Assembly: GCA_947500385.1 (NCBI GenBank)
Contig: CANMSA010000025.1
Location: forward strand, 1 to 64,000
Direction of reading: 5' to 3'
DNA from: an uncultured Flavobacteriaceae bacterium
GTDB taxonomy: Bacteria; Bacteroidota; Bacteroidia; Flavobacteriales; Flavobacteriaceae
Length of the DNA: 64,000 nt
Shown: positions 1,449 to 61,371 of the stretch, in pieces
Layout: the number at the start of each line of letters is the position of its first letter
Position numbering within the stretch: the stretch's first letter is position 1
Position numbers and translations under genes: made by a program
The notes under the pieces: model-generated
Databases searched by the model: none
The model's input: the letters and a program-made list of their open reading frames with translations, nothing else
What the model was told of the DNA's origin: nothing

Positions 1449-1545
1449 ATCACATTAATTTTGTAGGGTGCCCGACCCTCGATTATTAATTCTAATTTTT
1501 CCATTTCGATGAATGGAGGAAATCATTTCCCTTTTTTAAGGGGTG

Positions 1546-8953: not shown

Positions 8954-9027
8954 GGTTCGGTAGTTCAGTTGGTTAGAATACCTGCCTGTCACGCAGGGGG
9001 TCGCGGGTTCGAGTCCCGTCCGGACCG
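8954..9027 (+). tRNA. tRNA-Asp (GTC)
   Basis: A 74-base tRNA with a 7 bp acceptor stem (GGTTCGG pairing with CCGGACC, one T-G pair), D-arm with AGTTCAGTTGGTTAGA, anticodon GTC at 8988-8990 within CCTGCCTGTCACGCAGG, T-loop GGTTCGAGTCC and discriminator G9027. CCA is not encoded. The 3' end is repeated three more times downstream as part of a tandem repeat. Confidence 0.97.
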
Positions 9028-9523
9028 CTAAAAGCTCTCAACACAAGTTGGGGGCTTTTTTCGTTTACGCCGGTTTTGGTTCCGATATATTTTAAAGTGA
9101 GTAGGCGCGGGCCTCGACGTCTCACATTGGCGAAAGTCGGGATTCCGACCGGGCGTCGGCGTTCCCCCGAAGCTTCGGGGCCGTCCGGACCGCTTAAAGC
9201 TCTCAACACAAGTTGGGGGCTTTTTTCGTTTACGCCGGTTTTGGTTCCGGTTTATTTTAAAGTGAGTAGGCGCGGGCCCCGACATCTCACATTGGTGAAA
9301 GTCGGGATACCGACCGGGCGTCAGCGTTCCCCGAAGCTTCGGGGCCGTCCGGACCGCTAAAAGCTCTCAACACAAGTTGGGGGCTTTTTTCGTTTACGCA
9401 CGTTTTGGTTCCTGTATATGTTAAAATGAGCAGGAGCGGGCCCCGACGTCTCACCTTGGTGAAAGTCGGGATCCCGACCGGGCGTCGGCGTTCCCCCGAA
9501 GCTTCGGGGCCGTCCCGACCGCG
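9016..9523 (+). repeat. Three tandem ~165 bp repeats carrying the tRNA-Asp 3' end
   Basis: Units start at 9016, 9181 and 9345 (165, 164 and 165 bp), and a fourth partial boundary starts at 9510. Each begins with CCGTCCGGACCGC, which in the first unit is the real end of tRNA-Asp. Each then has the terminator hairpin and a GC-rich segment with GTCGGGATTCCGAC-type inverted repeats, and ends in the perfect palindrome CCCCGAAGCTTCGGGG (9165-9180, 9329-9344, 9494-9509). Copies differ at scattered positions, so they are not an assembly artefact of identical sequence. No integrase is present in the window. Confidence 0.85.
9031..9061 (+). terminator. Intrinsic terminator after tRNA-Asp
   Basis: A 12 bp stem, AAAGCTCTCAAC (9031-9042) with GTTGGGGGCTTT (9047-9058), loop ACAA, two T-G wobble pairs, then a T run. 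The same hairpin recurs at 9196-9226 and 9360-9390. Confidence 0.88.
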
Positions 9524-17113: not shown

Positions 17114-18079
17114 TTACAATTTGGTGGGTTGGGAAGCGGTATTGCCAGAAATACGCTTAATTTCTTGTTGCAGGGTGTTTATTTTCTGTTCCTGCTCCAA
17201 AAGGTACAGGGTCAACTCCTCAATTTTCATCAAAAGTTTGGAGTCCATTTCACCTAGTTTTACGCCATTTTTGGCCACTTCTTCAGCAGAGGGGATTTCA
17301 GGTAAATGACCATGTTTTGAAATATGTTGCGCTACTTCTTCAAGCGAGCGTAAGTTGTAATCCGCTTCAAAGACAAAGTCGCTCCAACCCGTTTCTACCA
17401 CCACTTCTTTGGCACGTACCTTGCCGTTTACAGCTAATTTGTAACTGCCCGGATTTCTGGTTCCAATACCTATATTCCCACTGGGTAAGATTCGCATCTT
17501 TTCGCTGGCATGCGTGCTGTTGCTAGATGCTGTAGAGAAAATAAGACTTGCAGTGCCAGAACTCCCGCTACGCAAAGACCTTATGGCTGCAAAAACTTGA
17601 CCGTTCGTAAACCCGGCCACCCCATAACGATGTCTAAATTCCAAGGCGGTTTGGGTACTTGCACTGTTCAGTCCAGTTCCCAAGATGAGTTTTGAATTTG
17701 TAGTATTTCCCCTGATTTCTAATGGCACCAAAGGAGCTGTAGTACCAATACCGACTCGACCATTTGGGGCAACGTAAACGCCTTTTTTACTAGACCAAGG
17801 GTTGGGCCCATGTGCCAAAAAAACGTTGCTAACAGCGTTTCCTGCTCCCAACATGCCTACTCCTCCGATAATGGTAGTGCCGCTTGCGCTCCTAAATCGT
17901 ATACCTCTGGCCCATCCTCCTGTTGTGAAGGGCTTGTTCATTAATAACTGTCCGCCATCAATGACAACACTTGAATTTTTAGTAGTAGGGTATTTATTTT
18001 GTGAGTGCACCAGAAAGGAGCCAAGACATAGAAAAGATAGTACATAAAAAAGTAGTTTGAAGGAGGTAATAAGTTTCAT
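17114..18079 (-). CDS. Secreted tail-fibre-like protein
   Basis: 321 residues with a signal peptide (FKLLFYVLSFLCLGSFLVHS). The middle has phage-tail-fibre-like glycine-rich repeats (GRVGIGTTAPLVPLEI, GNIGIGTRNPGSYKLAVNG). The C-terminal ~95 residues form a module also found in three other proteins here: GWSDFVFEADY, then GHLPEIPSAEEV, GVKLGEMD and KIEELTLYLLEQ, ending in a coiled coil. First gene of the three-gene operon. The conserved element at 18119-18212 lies just upstream. It has no T9SS tail of its own, so it may be exported another way or bind the T9SS partners. Tail-fibre homology is inferred from pattern. Confidence 0.72.
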   Translation of the reverse strand: MKLITSFKLLFYVLSFLCLGSFLVHSQNKYPTTKNSSVVIDGGQLLMNKPFTTGGWARGIRFRSASGTTIIGGVGMLGAGNAVSNVFLAHGPNPWSSKKGVYVAPNGRVGIGTTAPLVPLEIRGNTTNSKLILGTGLNSASTQTALEFRHRYGVAGFTNGQVFAAIRSLRSGSSGTASLIFSTASSNSTHASEKMRILPSGNIGIGTRNPGSYKLAVNGKVRAKEVVVETGWSDFVFEADYNLRSLEEVAQHISKHGHLPEIPSAEEVAKNGVKLGEMDSKLLMKIEELTLYLLEQEQKINTLQQEIKRISGNTASQPTKL

Positions 18080-18118
18080 AGGCGTAGTTTTAAGTGGTTA
18101 TTAAAAATGTGAAAACTA

Positions 18119-18212
18119 TAAAGGTAGTGGCCGAACTGGTTCGCTATTATCCTATTTGCGTACTGGTAGCTCGATTTCGAGCTTTATTTTGGCTCAAAAT
18201 GGGTATTTGTAA
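18119..18212 (-). promoter_or_regulatory. Promoter with conserved 46 bp upstream element (copy 1)
   Basis: The minus strand has a near-consensus -7 box TACCTTTA (18119-18126). Exactly 40 bases upstream is a 46 bp element (18167-18212) containing the inverted repeat AGCTCGA-TT-TCGAGCT and a distal TTACAAA. The same element, with the same 40-base gap to the -7 box, lies before the next tail-fibre-like gene at 19265-19310. Confidence 0.6.
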
Positions 18213-18268
18213 GTGGGATTTCAAAGAAAACTAAGCTACCAACGCTAGAGCACCTTTGGACTAGGGTA

Positions 18269-19135
18269 TTATTTCTTGCTCCTTTTTAGTTCTTCAATCT
18301 CTTTTTGTAAAGCAATGACATACAGCGTCAACTCCTCAATTTTCATCAAAAGTTTGGAGTCCATTTCACCTAGTTTTACGCCATTTTTGACTACTTCCTC
18401 TGCAGACGGAATTTCCGGTAAGTGTCCGTTTTCCGCTATATAGGTTTCTACTTCCTCCAAGGAACGCAGCTCGTAATCCGCTTCAAATACGAAATCGCTC
18501 CAACCAGTTTCTATCACACATTCCTTTGCTCTTATACTGCCATTTACCGCTAGTTTGTAGGCGCCAGGGTTCGATGTTCCTATACCCACTTTCCCAGCAG
18601 GTATAAGCACGTTGCCGATGTCATTCCTCAAATACATATTATTGGTATCATTCGGAAACCCTACATAACCCATTCTACCATTTCTGTTTTTGTACTCTAG
18701 GTAACCTCTTCCCTGAGCCCCTGCTCGATTGCTTCTGAGACTCATAATTGGTGTGGAAGCATTATAAACTTCCATTTGACGTGATGGACTCGTTGTTCCA
18801 ACTCCAAATCTTCCCTTAGGCACGATTATATTTCCCAGGTCGTTGGTGATATACAGGCTATTGTTAGAGCTACTCGGAAACCCGATGTATCCGAGTCTTG
18901 AATTGGAATCATAGTATTCTAGATAACCTCGGGATTTGACTCCTTCTTCCTTAGACTGTAATCGTATTATAGGCGCTGTGGCGCTTTCAATCTCAAGTGG
19001 TCTGGCGGGAGAACGGGTCCCTATACCTGTGTTGCCGGTTGAGGGAAATTTGTTTTGAGAATTTGCATTCGGGATGTAACAAAGAACCATAAATGCGCTA
19101 AAAAATAGGGTTTTCTTTACGTGTGATTTTTTCAT
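18269..19135 (-). CDS. Secreted tail-fibre-like protein, paralogue of the one at 17114
   Basis: About 288 residues from the ATG at 19135, giving the signal peptide MKKSHVKKTLFFSAFMVL. A longer frame reaches 19219, but the promoter -7 box lies there, so those codons are probably not transcribed. Two internal repeats (RLGYIGFPSSSNNSLYITND and RMGYVGFPNDTNNMYLRND) are followed by VGIGTSNPGAYKLAVNG and the same C-terminal module as the 17114 gene: GWSDFVFEADY, GHLPEIPSAEEV, GVKLGEMDSKLLMKIEELTLY. It is transcribed from its own promoter. Probably a cell-surface or adhesin-like protein; function not known. Confidence 0.72.
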   Translation of the reverse strand: MKKSHVKKTLFFSAFMVLCYIPNANSQNKFPSTGNTGIGTRSPARPLEIESATAPIIRLQSKEEGVKSRGYLEYYDSNSRLGYIGFPSSSNNSLYITNDLGNIIVPKGRFGVGTTSPSRQMEVYNASTPIMSLRSNRAGAQGRGYLEYKNRNGRMGYVGFPNDTNNMYLRNDIGNVLIPAGKVGIGTSNPGAYKLAVNGSIRAKECVIETGWSDFVFEADYELRSLEEVETYIAENGHLPEIPSAEEVVKNGVKLGEMDSKLLMKIEELTLYVIALQKEIEELKRSKK

Positions 19136-19216
19136 AATTAGTTGTTTAAGTTTAATTGTACGAGGCAAAAACCATGTGAAACGCAGGATTCTCGTTGGTT
19201 CAATTATCAATCGAGG

Positions 19217-19310
19217 CAAAGTTAATTTTTTGTTAAGGAGTGCGTGATTCGATTTGTGAACAGATAGCTCGATTTCGAGCTTTATTTTAGCACAGAATGC
19301 ACGTTTGTAA
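19217..19310 (-). promoter_or_regulatory. Promoter with conserved 46 bp upstream element (copy 2)
   Basis: Minus-strand -7 box TAACTTTG (19217-19224), a full TAnnTTTG match. After a 40-base gap comes the 46 bp element at 19265-19310 with the inverted repeat AGCTCGA-TT-TCGAGCT identical to copy 1 and the distal TTACAAA also kept. Placement about 60 bases upstream of the transcription start suits an activator. Confidence 0.65.
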
Positions 19311-19457: not shown

Positions 19458-21494
19458 TTAGACCGATAAAGCGATGCTAAAACTGGTTCCCTGATCGTTT
19501 ATAACCTTCATTTTTCCGCGAAGCTGTTCGGTCAACAATTCTACCAATTCCATCCCAATAGCTCCTGGGCGCTTCTTTTTGGGCGTAATGCCTACACCAT
19601 TGTCGCGAATGGTTAGTAAAACAGTATTTTCAGATTTATTTAAACCTACTTCGATCACACCTTCCTTTCCTTCAGGGAAAGCATGTTTGATTGCGTTCAT
19701 AATAACTTCGTGGGTAATAAGCCCTAAGGATAGTGCTTGTTCCAAGTCAAAATGAATATCGGAAACTTTCATGGTGTAGCTAATTTTGGAGACGTTCGGT
19801 GGATAGGATTTTTTGATCGCCTCCACTAATTCCTGTAGATAATGTTTGAAGTTTACATGTTGCACGCCTTCAGTTTCATAGAGAATTTGATGTATAAGGG
19901 CCATTGATCTGATACGGGATTCTCCTTTTTCCAAAAAGGCCTTGATTACTTTGTTCTCTTTCTCCTGTGAGAGGCCTTGAATGGCCAAGAGACTCATAAT
20001 CAGTTGTAAATTGTTTTTCACCCTATGATGAATTTCTTTTAACAACAATTCCTTTTCCTGGAGCGCATTGTTCAGGCTGGTTTCTTGCTCCTGTAACAGT
20101 TTATTGGTTTTGGTTTTGGTGCGGTATCTATAATAAAAGAGGCTGGCCAGCCCAAGCGCCATTAAAAGTAAGAACGTAATAATAATCCGTGTGGCCTCGT
20201 TTTTAGATGCGGCTAATTTCTGTTCACTGTTTTGAAGTTTCAAACTGGCAATCTCATTGTCTTTTTTTTCCTCATTAAACTTTAACTCCAAGGCCGTTAA
20301 CTTTTCTTTACTATTCACAGAAGTCATGCTATCTTTTAACTTTGTTGCTTTCTGATAATATCGCAGCGCGCTTGCATAGTTCCTGTTTGCGGAATCTATT
20401 TTGGATAGATTTTTGTACGAATCGATCAAACGATAGTCATTTTTCAAATCTTTGGAAACGTTTATCGTGATTTTGGCATATTTTTCTGCCAATTCGTATT
20501 TCTCCAATTTCAAATAGGAGTTTGATAAAGAGATGGTAGCATAGGGGACGCTATTCAAATCGGAATTTTCGTCTTCCTTTAATGAACGATAGGCTTCTAA
20601 GTAAAAACCGACACTTTTTTTAAAAAAACCTTGTTCATGGTTGAAAAAACCCTGTAACATCTGGTATTGTGTTCTGTTAAGTTTTGAGTCTGCCAAAACA
20701 AGGGGGTCTTTTTCTAAAAACGTCATATACTGTTTTGCACATTCAAAATTCTTAAGATGTATATAGGAGGCTGCTATATTTAGACTTGAGTGAAAGCGAA
20801 AGAAGGGTTGGTTTTGCATATCCTCATAAGCTGCTTCCAAGGTTTGAATGGTCTTTTCATATTGTTCGGTGTCATAATAAATACTGGCAATACTATATTG
20901 TAGTGTGCCTTTCGCGGCCGCACCAAATTCGTTTTTTTCCAAAACCTTTTCGGCTTTTTGAAAAGCCTTTAAGGCTTCTTCTGTATTATCTTTTATTCTT
21001 AGTAGGCTGCCCTTGGTATGAAAAAGACGAAAGGAATACTTATCAGAGTCAATGATTCCTGCGATAGACTCAAGTGTGTCAATTCGTGCTAAGGCATCAT
21101 CATAGTTCCCTTTCAACATCGCTATTTGAACTTCACCAAAACCGGTTACCAATTTTTTCACCTTCTTATTAAAAGATTTTTCCTGCTTTTTAGTATCCAG
21201 AATAAAACTGTCTATGGCCTGTGTATTACGAAGATTAAAATAGTTAGAGATAAATGTAGATTTTATTTCTACCCACTGTATTGTATCCCGTTGTTCTACC
21301 GCCCATTGCTCGAGCTCTGATAGATAGGTGTACGCGGAATCTACATTGGTATTGTGTAGCTTGTGGAATTTTATAAGGCCTTCAGGTATCGATTTGCTCT
21401 TGTCAAACGCTTTTTGCTCGGAACGTATGCAACCTATGAGCAATGCGACAGTGATAATTGCTGTAAATAAGCGAAAAATAGAGGAGTTTTTCAA
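19458..21494 (-). CDS. TPR sensor histidine kinase (HisKA_2 type), lipoprotein-like signal
   Basis: 678 residues. The N-terminus has a lipobox-like signal (ITVALLIGC). Residues ~30-410 are tetratricopeptide-like helices (LFHTKGSLLRIKDNTEEALKAFQKAEKVLE region). A transmembrane helix follows near 433-455 (IIITFLLLMALGLASLFYYR), then a coiled coil and a HisKA_2 dimerisation segment with the phospho-acceptor in KEIHHRVKNNLQ near residue 487. The ATPase has NAIKHAF, DNGVGI and GAIGMELV boxes. No response regulator is in the window, so it is an orphan kinase; it lies beside the tail-fibre-like genes and might control them. The start codon is TTG, chosen because it begins the signal peptide. Confidence 0.85.
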   Translation of the reverse strand: MKNSSIFRLFTAIITVALLIGCIRSEQKAFDKSKSIPEGLIKFHKLHNTNVDSAYTYLSELEQWAVEQRDTIQWVEIKSTFISNYFNLRNTQAIDSFILDTKKQEKSFNKKVKKLVTGFGEVQIAMLKGNYDDALARIDTLESIAGIIDSDKYSFRLFHTKGSLLRIKDNTEEALKAFQKAEKVLEKNEFGAAAKGTLQYSIASIYYDTEQYEKTIQTLEAAYEDMQNQPFFRFHSSLNIAASYIHLKNFECAKQYMTFLEKDPLVLADSKLNRTQYQMLQGFFNHEQGFFKKSVGFYLEAYRSLKEDENSDLNSVPYATISLSNSYLKLEKYELAEKYAKITINVSKDLKNDYRLIDSYKNLSKIDSANRNYASALRYYQKATKLKDSMTSVNSKEKLTALELKFNEEKKDNEIASLKLQNSEQKLAASKNEATRIIITFLLLMALGLASLFYYRYRTKTKTNKLLQEQETSLNNALQEKELLLKEIHHRVKNNLQLIMSLLAIQGLSQEKENKVIKAFLEKGESRIRSMALIHQILYETEGVQHVNFKHYLQELVEAIKKSYPPNVSKISYTMKVSDIHFDLEQALSLGLITHEVIMNAIKHAFPEGKEGVIEVGLNKSENTVLLTIRDNGVGITPKKKRPGAIGMELVELLTEQLRGKMKVINDQGTSFSIALSV

Positions 21495-21954: not shown

Positions 21955-22761
21955 ATGAAAATATTGACCAAGGGCAAGTATTACGGAGAAAAAAAGATGG
22001 AACATCATACGAATGGGGTCGTTTTGTCCGAATACAATTATAACACCCCTAAGACAGACTGGCATTATCATGAGAATCCGTATTTCATGTATGTACTCCA
22101 AGGAAATGTCTTTGATTTCAACAAAAAAAAGAGCACAACCTGTAGCTCGGGAAGCTTGTTGTTGCACAATTGGAACGAGGTGCATTGTAATACCAAAGAG
22201 TCTGACTTTGCGCGAGGTTTTCATATTGAATTCGAAAGGGGTTGGTACGAAGAAAAAAAATTGGATGTCGATTTATGGGAAGGAAGCAAGCGAATCGAAG
22301 ACCCGATAATGCACCATCTATTGGGCAAGCTATATGTGGAATTCAGAAACCGTGATGCGCATTCGGCCTTGGAGATCGATCTTTTGCTGTTGCAGCTGTG
22401 TGAGGCTTCCCAATCAAATCATATCAAGGAATACTGCGATCCGCCCGCTTGGATAAATAGATTGAAAGAACTGTTGCATGATGGGGATACCACGGGCTTG
22501 AACTTACAAGGACTCTCAGAAACCTTAGGAGTACACCCCGTGCATTTGTCGCGCACCATCCCAAAATATTTTTCCAGTGGTTTAAGCAATTACTTGCGAA
22601 GGCAAAAGGTAAAAAAAGCACTTAACTATCTCTTTGACCCGTCTTATTCACTGACCGAGATCCCATATTTGTGCGGTTTTGCAGATCAAAGCCATTTTAG
22701 CAGAACGTTCAAAGGTTATTTTGGGGCGACCCCCAAAGTATATAGAGCCAGATTGGTGTAA
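21955..22761 (+). CDS. AraC-family transcriptional regulator
   Basis: 268 residues. The N-terminal ~130 residues are a cupin-like sensing domain (DWHYHENPYFMYVLQGNVFDF). The C-terminal ~100 residues hold two helix-turn-helix motifs typical of AraC/XylS proteins (LSETLGVHPVHLSRTI and the signature LTEIPYLCGFADQSHFSRTF, then FGATPKVYR). It should bind DNA in the cytoplasm and respond to a small ligand. Its stop codon overlaps a possible start of the next gene (TAATG), so it may be co-transcribed with the serine hydrolase downstream. Confidence 0.92.
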   Translation: MKILTKGKYYGEKKMEHHTNGVVLSEYNYNTPKTDWHYHENPYFMYVLQGNVFDFNKKKSTTCSSGSLLLHNWNEVHCNTKESDFARGFHIEFERGWYEEKKLDVDLWEGSKRIEDPIMHHLLGKLYVEFRNRDAHSALEIDLLLLQLCEASQSNHIKEYCDPPAWINRLKELLHDGDTTGLNLQGLSETLGVHPVHLSRTIPKYFSSGLSNYLRRQKVKKALNYLFDPSYSLTEIPYLCGFADQSHFSRTFKGYFGATPKVYRARLV

Positions 22762-58901: not shown

Positions 58902-60908
58902 ATGACCTCCTTTTTTATGAAAAATTGTATTTCCTATTCCTACAAGCAGTGCGCTCGTGTAGGGCTGTTGCTCCCTTTTTTGTTACTCTGTGTATTTTCA
59001 ATGACAGCCCAATGTCCCGGTTCCATTGAGAATAGTTCTAGTGATCCTTCCATAACCTTTACTTCGACCAGTCTCCAAGCAGGTGGGGATAGTGCCGTAG
59101 TGGTAGATGACAATGGTGTCTGTGGTCTACGCGTGGAGAATGTTGATACAGGGCAACCGTGGGCCAGAGCACGGATTCAAGTTAACCTAAGCAATAATGG
59201 TCTGGTGGCTGGAGATGAATTAAGTGTTAGTTTGGATGCCAACGTACTTTCCGGTAAAGGACGGGTCGAATATAATGTTAATAATGCGGCCAATAGCGCT
59301 CTGATCGCTAGCGATTTTAATCCTGGGGTCGATAGTCATAGTGGGACATTTATATTGCCGGCAGGGGCCAACACCTTGGATTTATGGTTGTTCTCAAATT
59401 ATCAACAATCCGGAAATGGGGGGGTGGTGATATATTCGAACATCAGTATTACGAAGTCCGGCGGGGGTGGCACAGATTGCGCCACTGTCAACCTGCAAAC
59501 GGAATATCGAATCAATAGTGGTTCCTGGCCAAGGAATGAAAGTTCCGTTACCGTGGATTCCGGAGATAACTTGACCTTGAGCGGGTACCCTAATTCTTTG
59601 GTGATAACGATTACAGATCCCGCTGGCGTAGTACACGGGGATAACTACCAAATACAAGGTATAACGGCGGGCGATGCCGGGGTTTATACCATTACGGAAG
59701 CCGGTGGGTGTTCTGAAACCTTGTCGGTGAATGTTACGGGAAGCCCCCAGAATAGTCCACCGACCCCACCTGGGGTGCCAATTGCAACCAATGTAACCAC
59801 AGATATGGTAGACTTAAGCTGGAATCCATCTTCGGATGATGTGGCGGTAAGTGGCTACAGGGTGTTTTCAGGAACAACCTTGGTGGCCTCATCCACGAAC
59901 AATGCGGCGCAAATTACGGGCCTCACCCCCAATACCAGCTACTCCTTTACGGTAAGGGCGTTTGACGGTAACAATGCCGAAAGTACGGCAAGCGGAGCGG
60001 TCAACGTGATCACCTTGTCAAATCAAGGTTCTGATACGAATGTAGCCTTGGGTAAAACCGCTGAGCAATCCAGTGTTTACAATGGTAGAACGGCCGATAT
60101 CGCGGTGGATGGGGATACCGATGGAAACGGCGAGGCCAAAGTGACCCATACCAATTCTGATGATCAAATGTGGTGGCAGGTTGATTTGGGAGGTAATCAT
60201 AATGTAAACGAAATACATGTTTACAATCGAACGGATTTCGGCCCTAGCAGATTACAGTTTGCCGAGATTTATGTGGGCAACGCAGACACCAAAAATCCCA
60301 GTGACTACACCTTGGTAGGTACGCTGGGTCCTTCTGCGCAGGTGCAAGAGTTTAATGGACTATCGGTTAGCGGCAGGTACGTCATGGTACACTTATTAAA
60401 ATCATCGGGGAATGATAAATTTCTTAGCCTTGCTGAGGTGGAAGTGTATGGTGCTCCGGTTTCCAATCCCGGACCGGGAGGGGATTCGGTGTGGACCGCC
60501 AATACCTATGGTATCAGTTTTAACGCTACGGGTACCCCGAATGGGAATGTAGGAATCGGGACCACACCTCAATCAAACTATCGGTTAGCGGTTGATGGTA
60601 CTATTCATACAAGGGAAGTAAGAGTGGATGATATTGGATGGGCCGATTATGTTTTTGAAGATGATTACCGATTACCCAGTTTACAGCAAGTTCAGGAGCA
60701 TATAGAATCCCATGGTCATCTGATAAATGTACCCTCGGCAAAAGAAGTGGAAGCCAATGGGATTGAATTGGGTGAAATGAATAAAATTTTGCTGGAGAAA
60801 ATTGAGGAATTGACACTTTACATACTTCAAGAAAATAAAAAGCAAAAAGAATTGGAAGAGGTGCTAAAAGAATTGGAACAAATCGCAAAACCACATGGAA
60901 ATGATTAG
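58902..60908 (+). CDS. Secreted protein with FN3, F5/8C discoidin and tail-fibre-like module
   Basis: 668 residues with a signal peptide (GLLLPFLLLCVFSMTAQ). Residues ~40-185 are a beta-sandwich resembling a carbohydrate-binding module; ~195-280 Ig-like; ~285-372 FN3 (GVPIATNVTTDMVDLSWNPS); ~379-515 an F5/8 type C discoidin domain (NVALGKTAEQSS ... MWWQVDLGG); ~530-668 the module shared with three other proteins here (GWADYVFEDDY, GHLINVPSAKEV, KIEELTLYIL). It binds glycans or surfaces by its domains. Its last 14 bases overlap the next gene. Confidence 0.8.
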   Translation: MTSFFMKNCISYSYKQCARVGLLLPFLLLCVFSMTAQCPGSIENSSSDPSITFTSTSLQAGGDSAVVVDDNGVCGLRVENVDTGQPWARARIQVNLSNNGLVAGDELSVSLDANVLSGKGRVEYNVNNAANSALIASDFNPGVDSHSGTFILPAGANTLDLWLFSNYQQSGNGGVVIYSNISITKSGGGGTDCATVNLQTEYRINSGSWPRNESSVTVDSGDNLTLSGYPNSLVITITDPAGVVHGDNYQIQGITAGDAGVYTITEAGGCSETLSVNVTGSPQNSPPTPPGVPIATNVTTDMVDLSWNPSSDDVAVSGYRVFSGTTLVASSTNNAAQITGLTPNTSYSFTVRAFDGNNAESTASGAVNVITLSNQGSDTNVALGKTAEQSSVYNGRTADIAVDGDTDGNGEAKVTHTNSDDQMWWQVDLGGNHNVNEIHVYNRTDFGPSRLQFAEIYVGNADTKNPSDYTLVGTLGPSAQVQEFNGLSVSGRYVMVHLLKSSGNDKFLSLAEVEVYGAPVSNPGPGGDSVWTANTYGISFNATGTPNGNVGIGTTPQSNYRLAVDGTIHTREVRVDDIGWADYVFEDDYRLPSLQQVQEHIESHGHLINVPSAKEVEANGIELGEMNKILLEKIEELTLYILQENKKQKELEEVLKELEQIAKPHGND

Positions 60909-61371
60909 TAATAAAATGCTTGTTATGTTTTTTTGTTTGTGTCTTGGAAAGATGCTTCAAGCGCAAGAACCTTGGGTTGTCGAAAACGAAGGGGTCTATT
61001 ATTCAGAAGAGAATGTGGGCATTGGTACTCTGGCGCAGGAGAATTATAAACTGGCCGTAGATGGTCGCGTTCATGCGCGCGAAGTACATATAAATCAGAA
61101 CAGCTGGCCCGACTACGTATTTAGAAATGATTACCAGCTTCCTTCATTGGATTCTTTAAGAAATCAAATTAAAAATAAAGGGCATCTAATCAATATCCCG
61201 TCTGCCGAAGAGGTTGGCCAAAAGGGTATTAAACTAGCTGAGATGAATCGTCTTCTAATGGAAAAGGTGGAGGAACTTACTTTATACCTGCTTGCTCATC
61301 GAGAAAAACGCAAAACAATCGAAGCCAGGATTCATACGCTAATGGAGCAATTCGAATCGACACAAAAGTAG
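60895..61371 (+). CDS. Small secreted paralogue of the tail-fibre-like module
   Basis: 158 residues that are almost only the shared module: signal peptide (LVMFFCLCLGKMLQAQ), VGIGTLAQENYKLAVDGRV, SWPDYVFRNDY, GHLINIPSAEEV and KVEELTLYLLAH, ending in a coiled coil. Overlaps the upstream gene by 14 bases (ATG at 60895, or at 60901 as an alternative) and precedes the RHS-like gene by 71 bases. Position between two big surface proteins suggests it works with them; function unknown. Confidence 0.75.
   Translation: MEMISNKMLVMFFCLCLGKMLQAQEPWVVENEGVYYSEENVGIGTLAQENYKLAVDGRVHAREVHINQNSWPDYVFRNDYQLPSLDSLRNQIKNKGHLINIPSAEEVGQKGIKLAEMNRLLMEKVEELTLYLLAHREKRKTIEARIHTLMEQFESTQK

Follow-up and report, generated by a model that had tools for sequence, protein, structure and literature searches.

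A palindrome-centred block repeated upstream of two adjacent fibre-like genes in a flavobacterial genome: a candidate local activator site

Genes and layout of the repeated block

The window (64,000 nucleotides, on contig C25 of a Flavobacteriaceae genome of 6.03 Mb in 123 contigs, 99.86% complete) contains two adjacent paralogous genes for fibre-like proteins, each preceded on the minus strand by a copy of a 64-bp block, the two copies being identical at 51 of 64 positions in an ungapped alignment (Table 1). The 288-aa protein has GIGT repeats, a C-terminal EELTLY module and, by eye, a signal-peptide-like start; it has weak matches to PHROG tail fiber families and no Pfam family, and NCBIfam holds no family for either member of the pair. 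Both proteins carry the module, as do other EELTLY fibre-like proteins of flavobacteria. Two genes for T9SS-sorted proteins follow the 17114 gene, and the three probably form one operon, judging from their arrangement; because the gaps behind the 17114 gene are of 3 nt, block copy 1 probably controls all three.

Table 1. Positions of the genes, block copies and predicted promoter boxes within the window
Feature	Positions	Strand	Remarks
T9SS-sorted protein, 337 aa	12620-13633	minus	Por_Secre_tail; 3 nt after the 1157-aa gene
T9SS-sorted protein, 1157 aa	13637-17110	minus	Por_Secre_tail and CARDB; 3 nt past the end of the 17114 gene
Paralogue, 321 aa, downstream of copy 1	17114-18079	minus	71% identical over the C-terminal module
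Exact 63-bp tract in the C-terminal coding module	17211-17273 and 18327-18389	minus	one per paralogue
Predicted -7 box, copy 1: TACCTTTA	18119-18126	minus	one mismatch to TAnnTTTG
Block copy 1	18149-18212	minus	51/64 in alignment; covariance model match 93.0 bits
Palindrome, copy 1	18168-18183	minus	7-2-7, same sequence as copy 2
Fibre-like protein, 288 aa, downstream of copy 2	18269-19135	minus	from translation
Predicted -7 box, copy 2: TAACTTTG	19217-19224	minus	exact match to TAnnTTTG
Block copy 2	19247-19310	minus	51/64 in alignment; covariance model match 93.3 bits
Palindrome, copy 2	19266-19281	minus	7-2-7, AGCTCGA-AA-TCGAGCT, exact
Histidine kinase	19458-21494	minus	TPR, HisKA_2, HATPase; upstream of the fibre genes
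AraC gene, no receiver domain detected	21955-22761		divergent from the kinase

Both copies have the same order: TTACAAA, 15 nt, AAAATAA, the 16-bp palindrome and, 9 nt downstream of it, an identical CAAAT. The centre is an exact 24-bp direct repeat (18167-18190 and 19265-19288) composed of AAAATAA, AGCTCGAAATCGAGCT and a single A, and the 13 differences between the copies are scattered around this core. The original prediction placed both copies correctly, with AAAATAA and TTACAAA identical and equally distant in each; the element is real, but the 46 bp assigned to it were too few, as the block has 64 columns and includes the previously unlisted CAAAT.

Exact direct repeats of at least 20 bases form eight rows in the window, one of them being the 24-mer pair; 20 window shuffles contained no repeated 20-mer. 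With up to three mismatches allowed, the palindrome was matched less often in every one of 100 window shuffles. The 7-2-7 palindrome by itself is not rare in the window and is not remarkable: there are 13 exact 7-2-7 repeats, both copies included, compared with 5.1 on average and at most 11 in 50 shuffles. A different set of repeats lies at 9016-9522, where three 165-bp tandem units directly follow the tRNA-Asp gene (8954-9028); each unit includes a copy of the tRNA's final bases, which read CCGTCCGGACCGC or close to it, as well as a hairpin with a T run that resembles a terminator, and CCCCGAAGCTTCGGGG.

The copies lie in direct orientation, 1098 bp apart, on either side of the 18269 gene, so recombination between them at the AA centre could delete or swap this fibre gene. 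Serine-invertase sites have inverted arms around a central dinucleotide, and the palindrome arms are arranged in this way. However, a Pfam scan of 37 window ORFs (from 67 of at least 100 aa, many overlapping) showed no recombinase family, no third copy was found in the genome, the conserved parts of the block are asymmetric about its centre, and a recombination site would leave the spacing to the box unexplained. This reading is very improbable.

Predicted promoters and the position of the palindrome

Each block is followed by a predicted -7 box that resembles those of flavobacterial sigma-A promoters. The palindrome lies 41 nt from the box in both copies, so the equal spacing originally predicted holds; the earlier figure of 40 had counted the extra A of the core as part of the element. 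Passages of PMC9723704 place the sigma-A -7 box of F. psychrophilum at -12 to -5. If the predicted boxes occupy these positions, the palindrome extends from -69 to -54 and is centred at -61.5 in both predicted promoters, with CAAAT at -44 to -40 and TTACAAA at -98 to -92 in the same numbering. A position of -61.5 is the one described for class I activation by CRP in part of PMC2859248. The pair also resembles class I sites, such as those of E. coli CRP, in the location of the palindrome upstream of the predicted core promoter and in constant spacing, here across two promoters; it differs from the E. coli CRP case in having a Bacteroidota -7 box and a start position that is predicted only. The sequence and half-site length of the CRP site differ from those of the AGCTCGA palindrome.

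Unlike flavobacterial sigma-A promoters, neither member of the pair has TTG or TTTG at -40 to -25. This is what an activator-dependent promoter might show, and it could equally mean that the sites are not promoters. Boxes of the -7 type precede 5 of the 27 window genes tested, a number reached by 34 of 300 shuffle sets, so that there is no significant enrichment. A pair of boxes at the same offset with at most one mismatch in total occurred in 0.015% of 20,000 shuffled leader pairs, a control that treats the two leaders as unrelated, which those of paralogues are not.

The near edge of the block is the sharper of the two. The 22 bases of spacer outside it agree at only 3 positions between the copies (all flanking comparisons being ungapped), but the boxes TACCTTTA and TAACTTTG agree at 6 of 8, and the block and its spacing therefore look constrained; the decay of the spacer argues that shared ancestry is not the whole reason for the likeness of the boxes. 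Between the box and the start codon of copy 1 the identity is 8/39. The far edge is less sharp, with 7/18 identical bases and then 10/38, which counts slightly against an activator site.

A function at the RNA level, either as a plus-strand terminator against antisense transcription or as a hairpin in a minus-strand 5' leader, is improbable. Both copies were flagged as terminator-like, with the palindrome and TTATTTT on the plus strand, but the flanking genes are all on the minus strand, with no known plus-strand gene to stop, and three terminator-like sites were found compared with a shuffle mean of 1.8. A 6-bp hairpin is predicted in all four folds of the leaders (two leaders, two lengths each), and a match to TTTACA-16-TAAAAT upstream of copy 2 could provide the transcript; the hairpin is nevertheless weakly stable, with fold z-scores of -0.86 to -1.45. 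A start about 7 nt after TAAAAT, the usual spacing, would sit within the first arm of the hairpin. Neither version accounts for TTACAAA, CAAAT or the constant spacing to the box. Over the element, no match to an Rfam family is as high as the gathering score; the plus strand has a lysine-riboswitch match (18053-18263) at about half the score required. Elsewhere in the window, an S16-Flavobacteria ribosomal leader (1454-1490, minus strand) precedes the S16 gene (807-1448).

Distribution of the element and candidate regulators

The two block copies are the only places in the genome where the palindrome occurs with zero mismatches. One place with one mismatch and three with two mismatches were found elsewhere, all without the adjoining AAAATAA and TTACAAA. 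At up to three mismatches there are 52 strand hits, compared with 28 for a reversed control; near-palindromic hits can count twice, and their context was read for loci L001 to L016. A longer pattern matched the two copies and one further place with three mismatches, and its reversed control had one match.

Conservation of the element in relatives was considered and rejected. A pattern search at up to three mismatches gave no match in nine congeners; among 298 other genomes of the family it gave a single three-mismatch match in each of eight, compared with matches in five genomes for the reversed control. A covariance model, which lets the palindrome change, found only the two copies in 40 relatives at an E-value of 1e-3 or better; five single weak matches in other genomes of this set (E 0.2 to 0.9) were taken as chance, one of them (in G009) after inspection. 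With stricter filters and an E-value of 0.01, the model recovered only the same two copies from 397 genomes of the family, and thus found the element in none of the 396 others. Because the two copies occur in one genome only, the element has no independent comparative support, and as the palindrome never varies, no compensatory change is visible. Among other collections, phage DNA gave no match, plasmid DNA gave one match, which covers 9% of the query and falls within the module-coding part of the 17114 gene, a search of viral contigs with the exact pattern gave none, and the best match among PDB sequences had an E-value of 0.67; six distant relatives were found among named genomes. No earlier report of such an element was found in the literature searched, which is no proof of absence.

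The genome contains 19 matches to the fibre-like protein, these two included, and only this pair has the element, unlike the other EELTLY genes. A regulon extending across EELTLY genes was therefore rejected: with 19 protein matches and two element copies, the family as a whole is not controlled through this element. The leaders of 16 of the 19 were extracted (15 matches and the 58902 gene), and those of C2:267918, C2:293799 and C4:141844 were covered by the whole-genome searches instead. The surface-protein regulon of the original prediction is not supported by the whole-genome pattern and covariance searches, which found two adjacent copies and no more.

The proposal that the neighbouring histidine kinase belongs to the same circuit fares no better. 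The covariance model finds no copy of the element before the kinase gene, and its two closest relatives, one a paralogue with 50% identity on contig C8 and the other a gene of the congener G006 that matches the end of the kinase gene at 84% in DNA, each have a protein with receiver and AraC domains encoded directly downstream. No response regulator lies directly downstream of the kinase in the window, where the fibre genes occupy the place of the REC-AraC regulator; the absence of this usual partner is what gives the kinase its orphan look, and nothing links it to the element. REC-AraC regulators are not expected to use a short palindrome. A separate observation on the kinase is that its identity to the G006 counterpart (L095, 5129-7203) steps from 36% over residues 47-552 to 87% over residues 552-678, which hints at a recombination breakpoint; in G006 the reading frame is split.

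AraC genes in which no receiver domain was detected, like the one that diverges from the kinase, lie directly upstream of EELTLY genes on contig C4 of the same genome and in the congeners G006 and G004. The exact AGCTCGA-AA-TCGAGCT, with its inverted heptamers and 2-bp spacer, also resembles NarL-type sites, many of which are 7-2-7 inverted repeats according to passages of PMC7419079. Because of this NarL-type layout, one candidate for the regulator is a response regulator with a GerE domain whose gene lies in another part of the genome; there are 25 GerE matches in all, 24 of them over the curated cut-off. None of the 25 lies on contig C25, unlike what would be expected if a NarL-type site had its regulator nearby (the count of matches being only a proxy), so that a regulator acting in trans is possible. 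The consensus heptamer of NarL differs from AGCTCGA.

Origin and maintenance of the block

Duplication of a gene together with its leader would account for the presence of two copies, and the original prediction named the residue of a recent event of this kind as a finding that would count against it. A recent duplication was rejected, as the identity is not continuous through the spacer or between the box and the start of copy 1. The genes are duplicates with apparent conversion between them, as that objection supposed, but they duplicated long ago, and their leaders have decayed outside the block and box. In the exact 63-bp tract, all 20 inner codons are identical; in the C-terminal module outside it, identical codons are used for 24 of 52 shared residues, and 10 of 23 fourfold sites agree, a level which indicates that the duplication is not fresh. 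The tract probably arose when one paralogue converted the other within the EELTLY module only; elsewhere the two have diverged.

Gene conversion may have kept the element alike too, and the block is held by selection, by conversion or by both. That it is only a residue of tandem duplication kept alike by conversion, the palindrome having no special binding function, is the main rival explanation and is considered unlikely. The paralogy of the genes, the recent exchange indicated by the 63-bp tract and the failure to find the element anywhere else in the searches are in its favour. However, the block shows 13 scattered differences around a 24-bp core in place of one clean tract, and the box 41 nt away was kept across a spacer decayed to 3/22. 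The identity of 51/64 has a binomial probability of 3.5e-9 at the fourfold-site level of 10/23, and of 7e-4 for an assumed neutral identity of 60%. Selection is favoured by the way in which the differences are spread around an unbroken core, and by a box that is conserved separately from the block.

The best explanation, held with moderate confidence, is that the element is a local activator site for the neighbouring pair, kept after an old gene duplication. The activator site of the original prediction survives in this narrower form: a shared promoter-proximal element, equal spacing and paralogous genes are consistent with it, and its scope as a regulon is not. A dimeric DNA-binding protein would sit on the palindrome and bring in RNA polymerase by way of its alpha C-terminal domain; that domain could make use of CAAAT, present in both copies, while TTACAAA and AAAATAA may provide further contacts or flexible upstream DNA. 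The module would have been copied with the gene in an old tandem duplication and then kept by purifying selection, as the remaining leader sequence and the central parts of the proteins drifted apart. Its effect would be to activate the 18269 gene together with the putative operon made up of the 17114 gene and the two genes for T9SS-sorted proteins. If so, the pair offers a compact test case of whether E. coli class I geometry holds with a sigma factor of the Bacteroidota, and a way into the control of two members of the common EELTLY fibre-like proteins.

A more speculative proposal, which is very unlikely, is that the 5' element and the 3' coding module serve as homology handles of a two-slot cassette for antigenic variation through homologous recombination; if this were true, fibre variants differing in the variable middle would swap between two identically controlled expression sites.

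EELTLY genes at other places in the genome are followed by genes for large proteins of about 1,000 aa (window positions 60895-61371 and 61443 onward; L110 to L113), some of which end like YD-repeat proteins by eye; among five such proteins searched against Pfam, one of them cut by the end of its locus, there was a single weak SpvB match. In G008, two paralogues on different contigs (L118, 4499; L119, 4180) are near-identical over the last 57 nt or so before the start, if shifted by one base in a comparison by eye, and share little further up; these shared leaders may contain another kept leader element.
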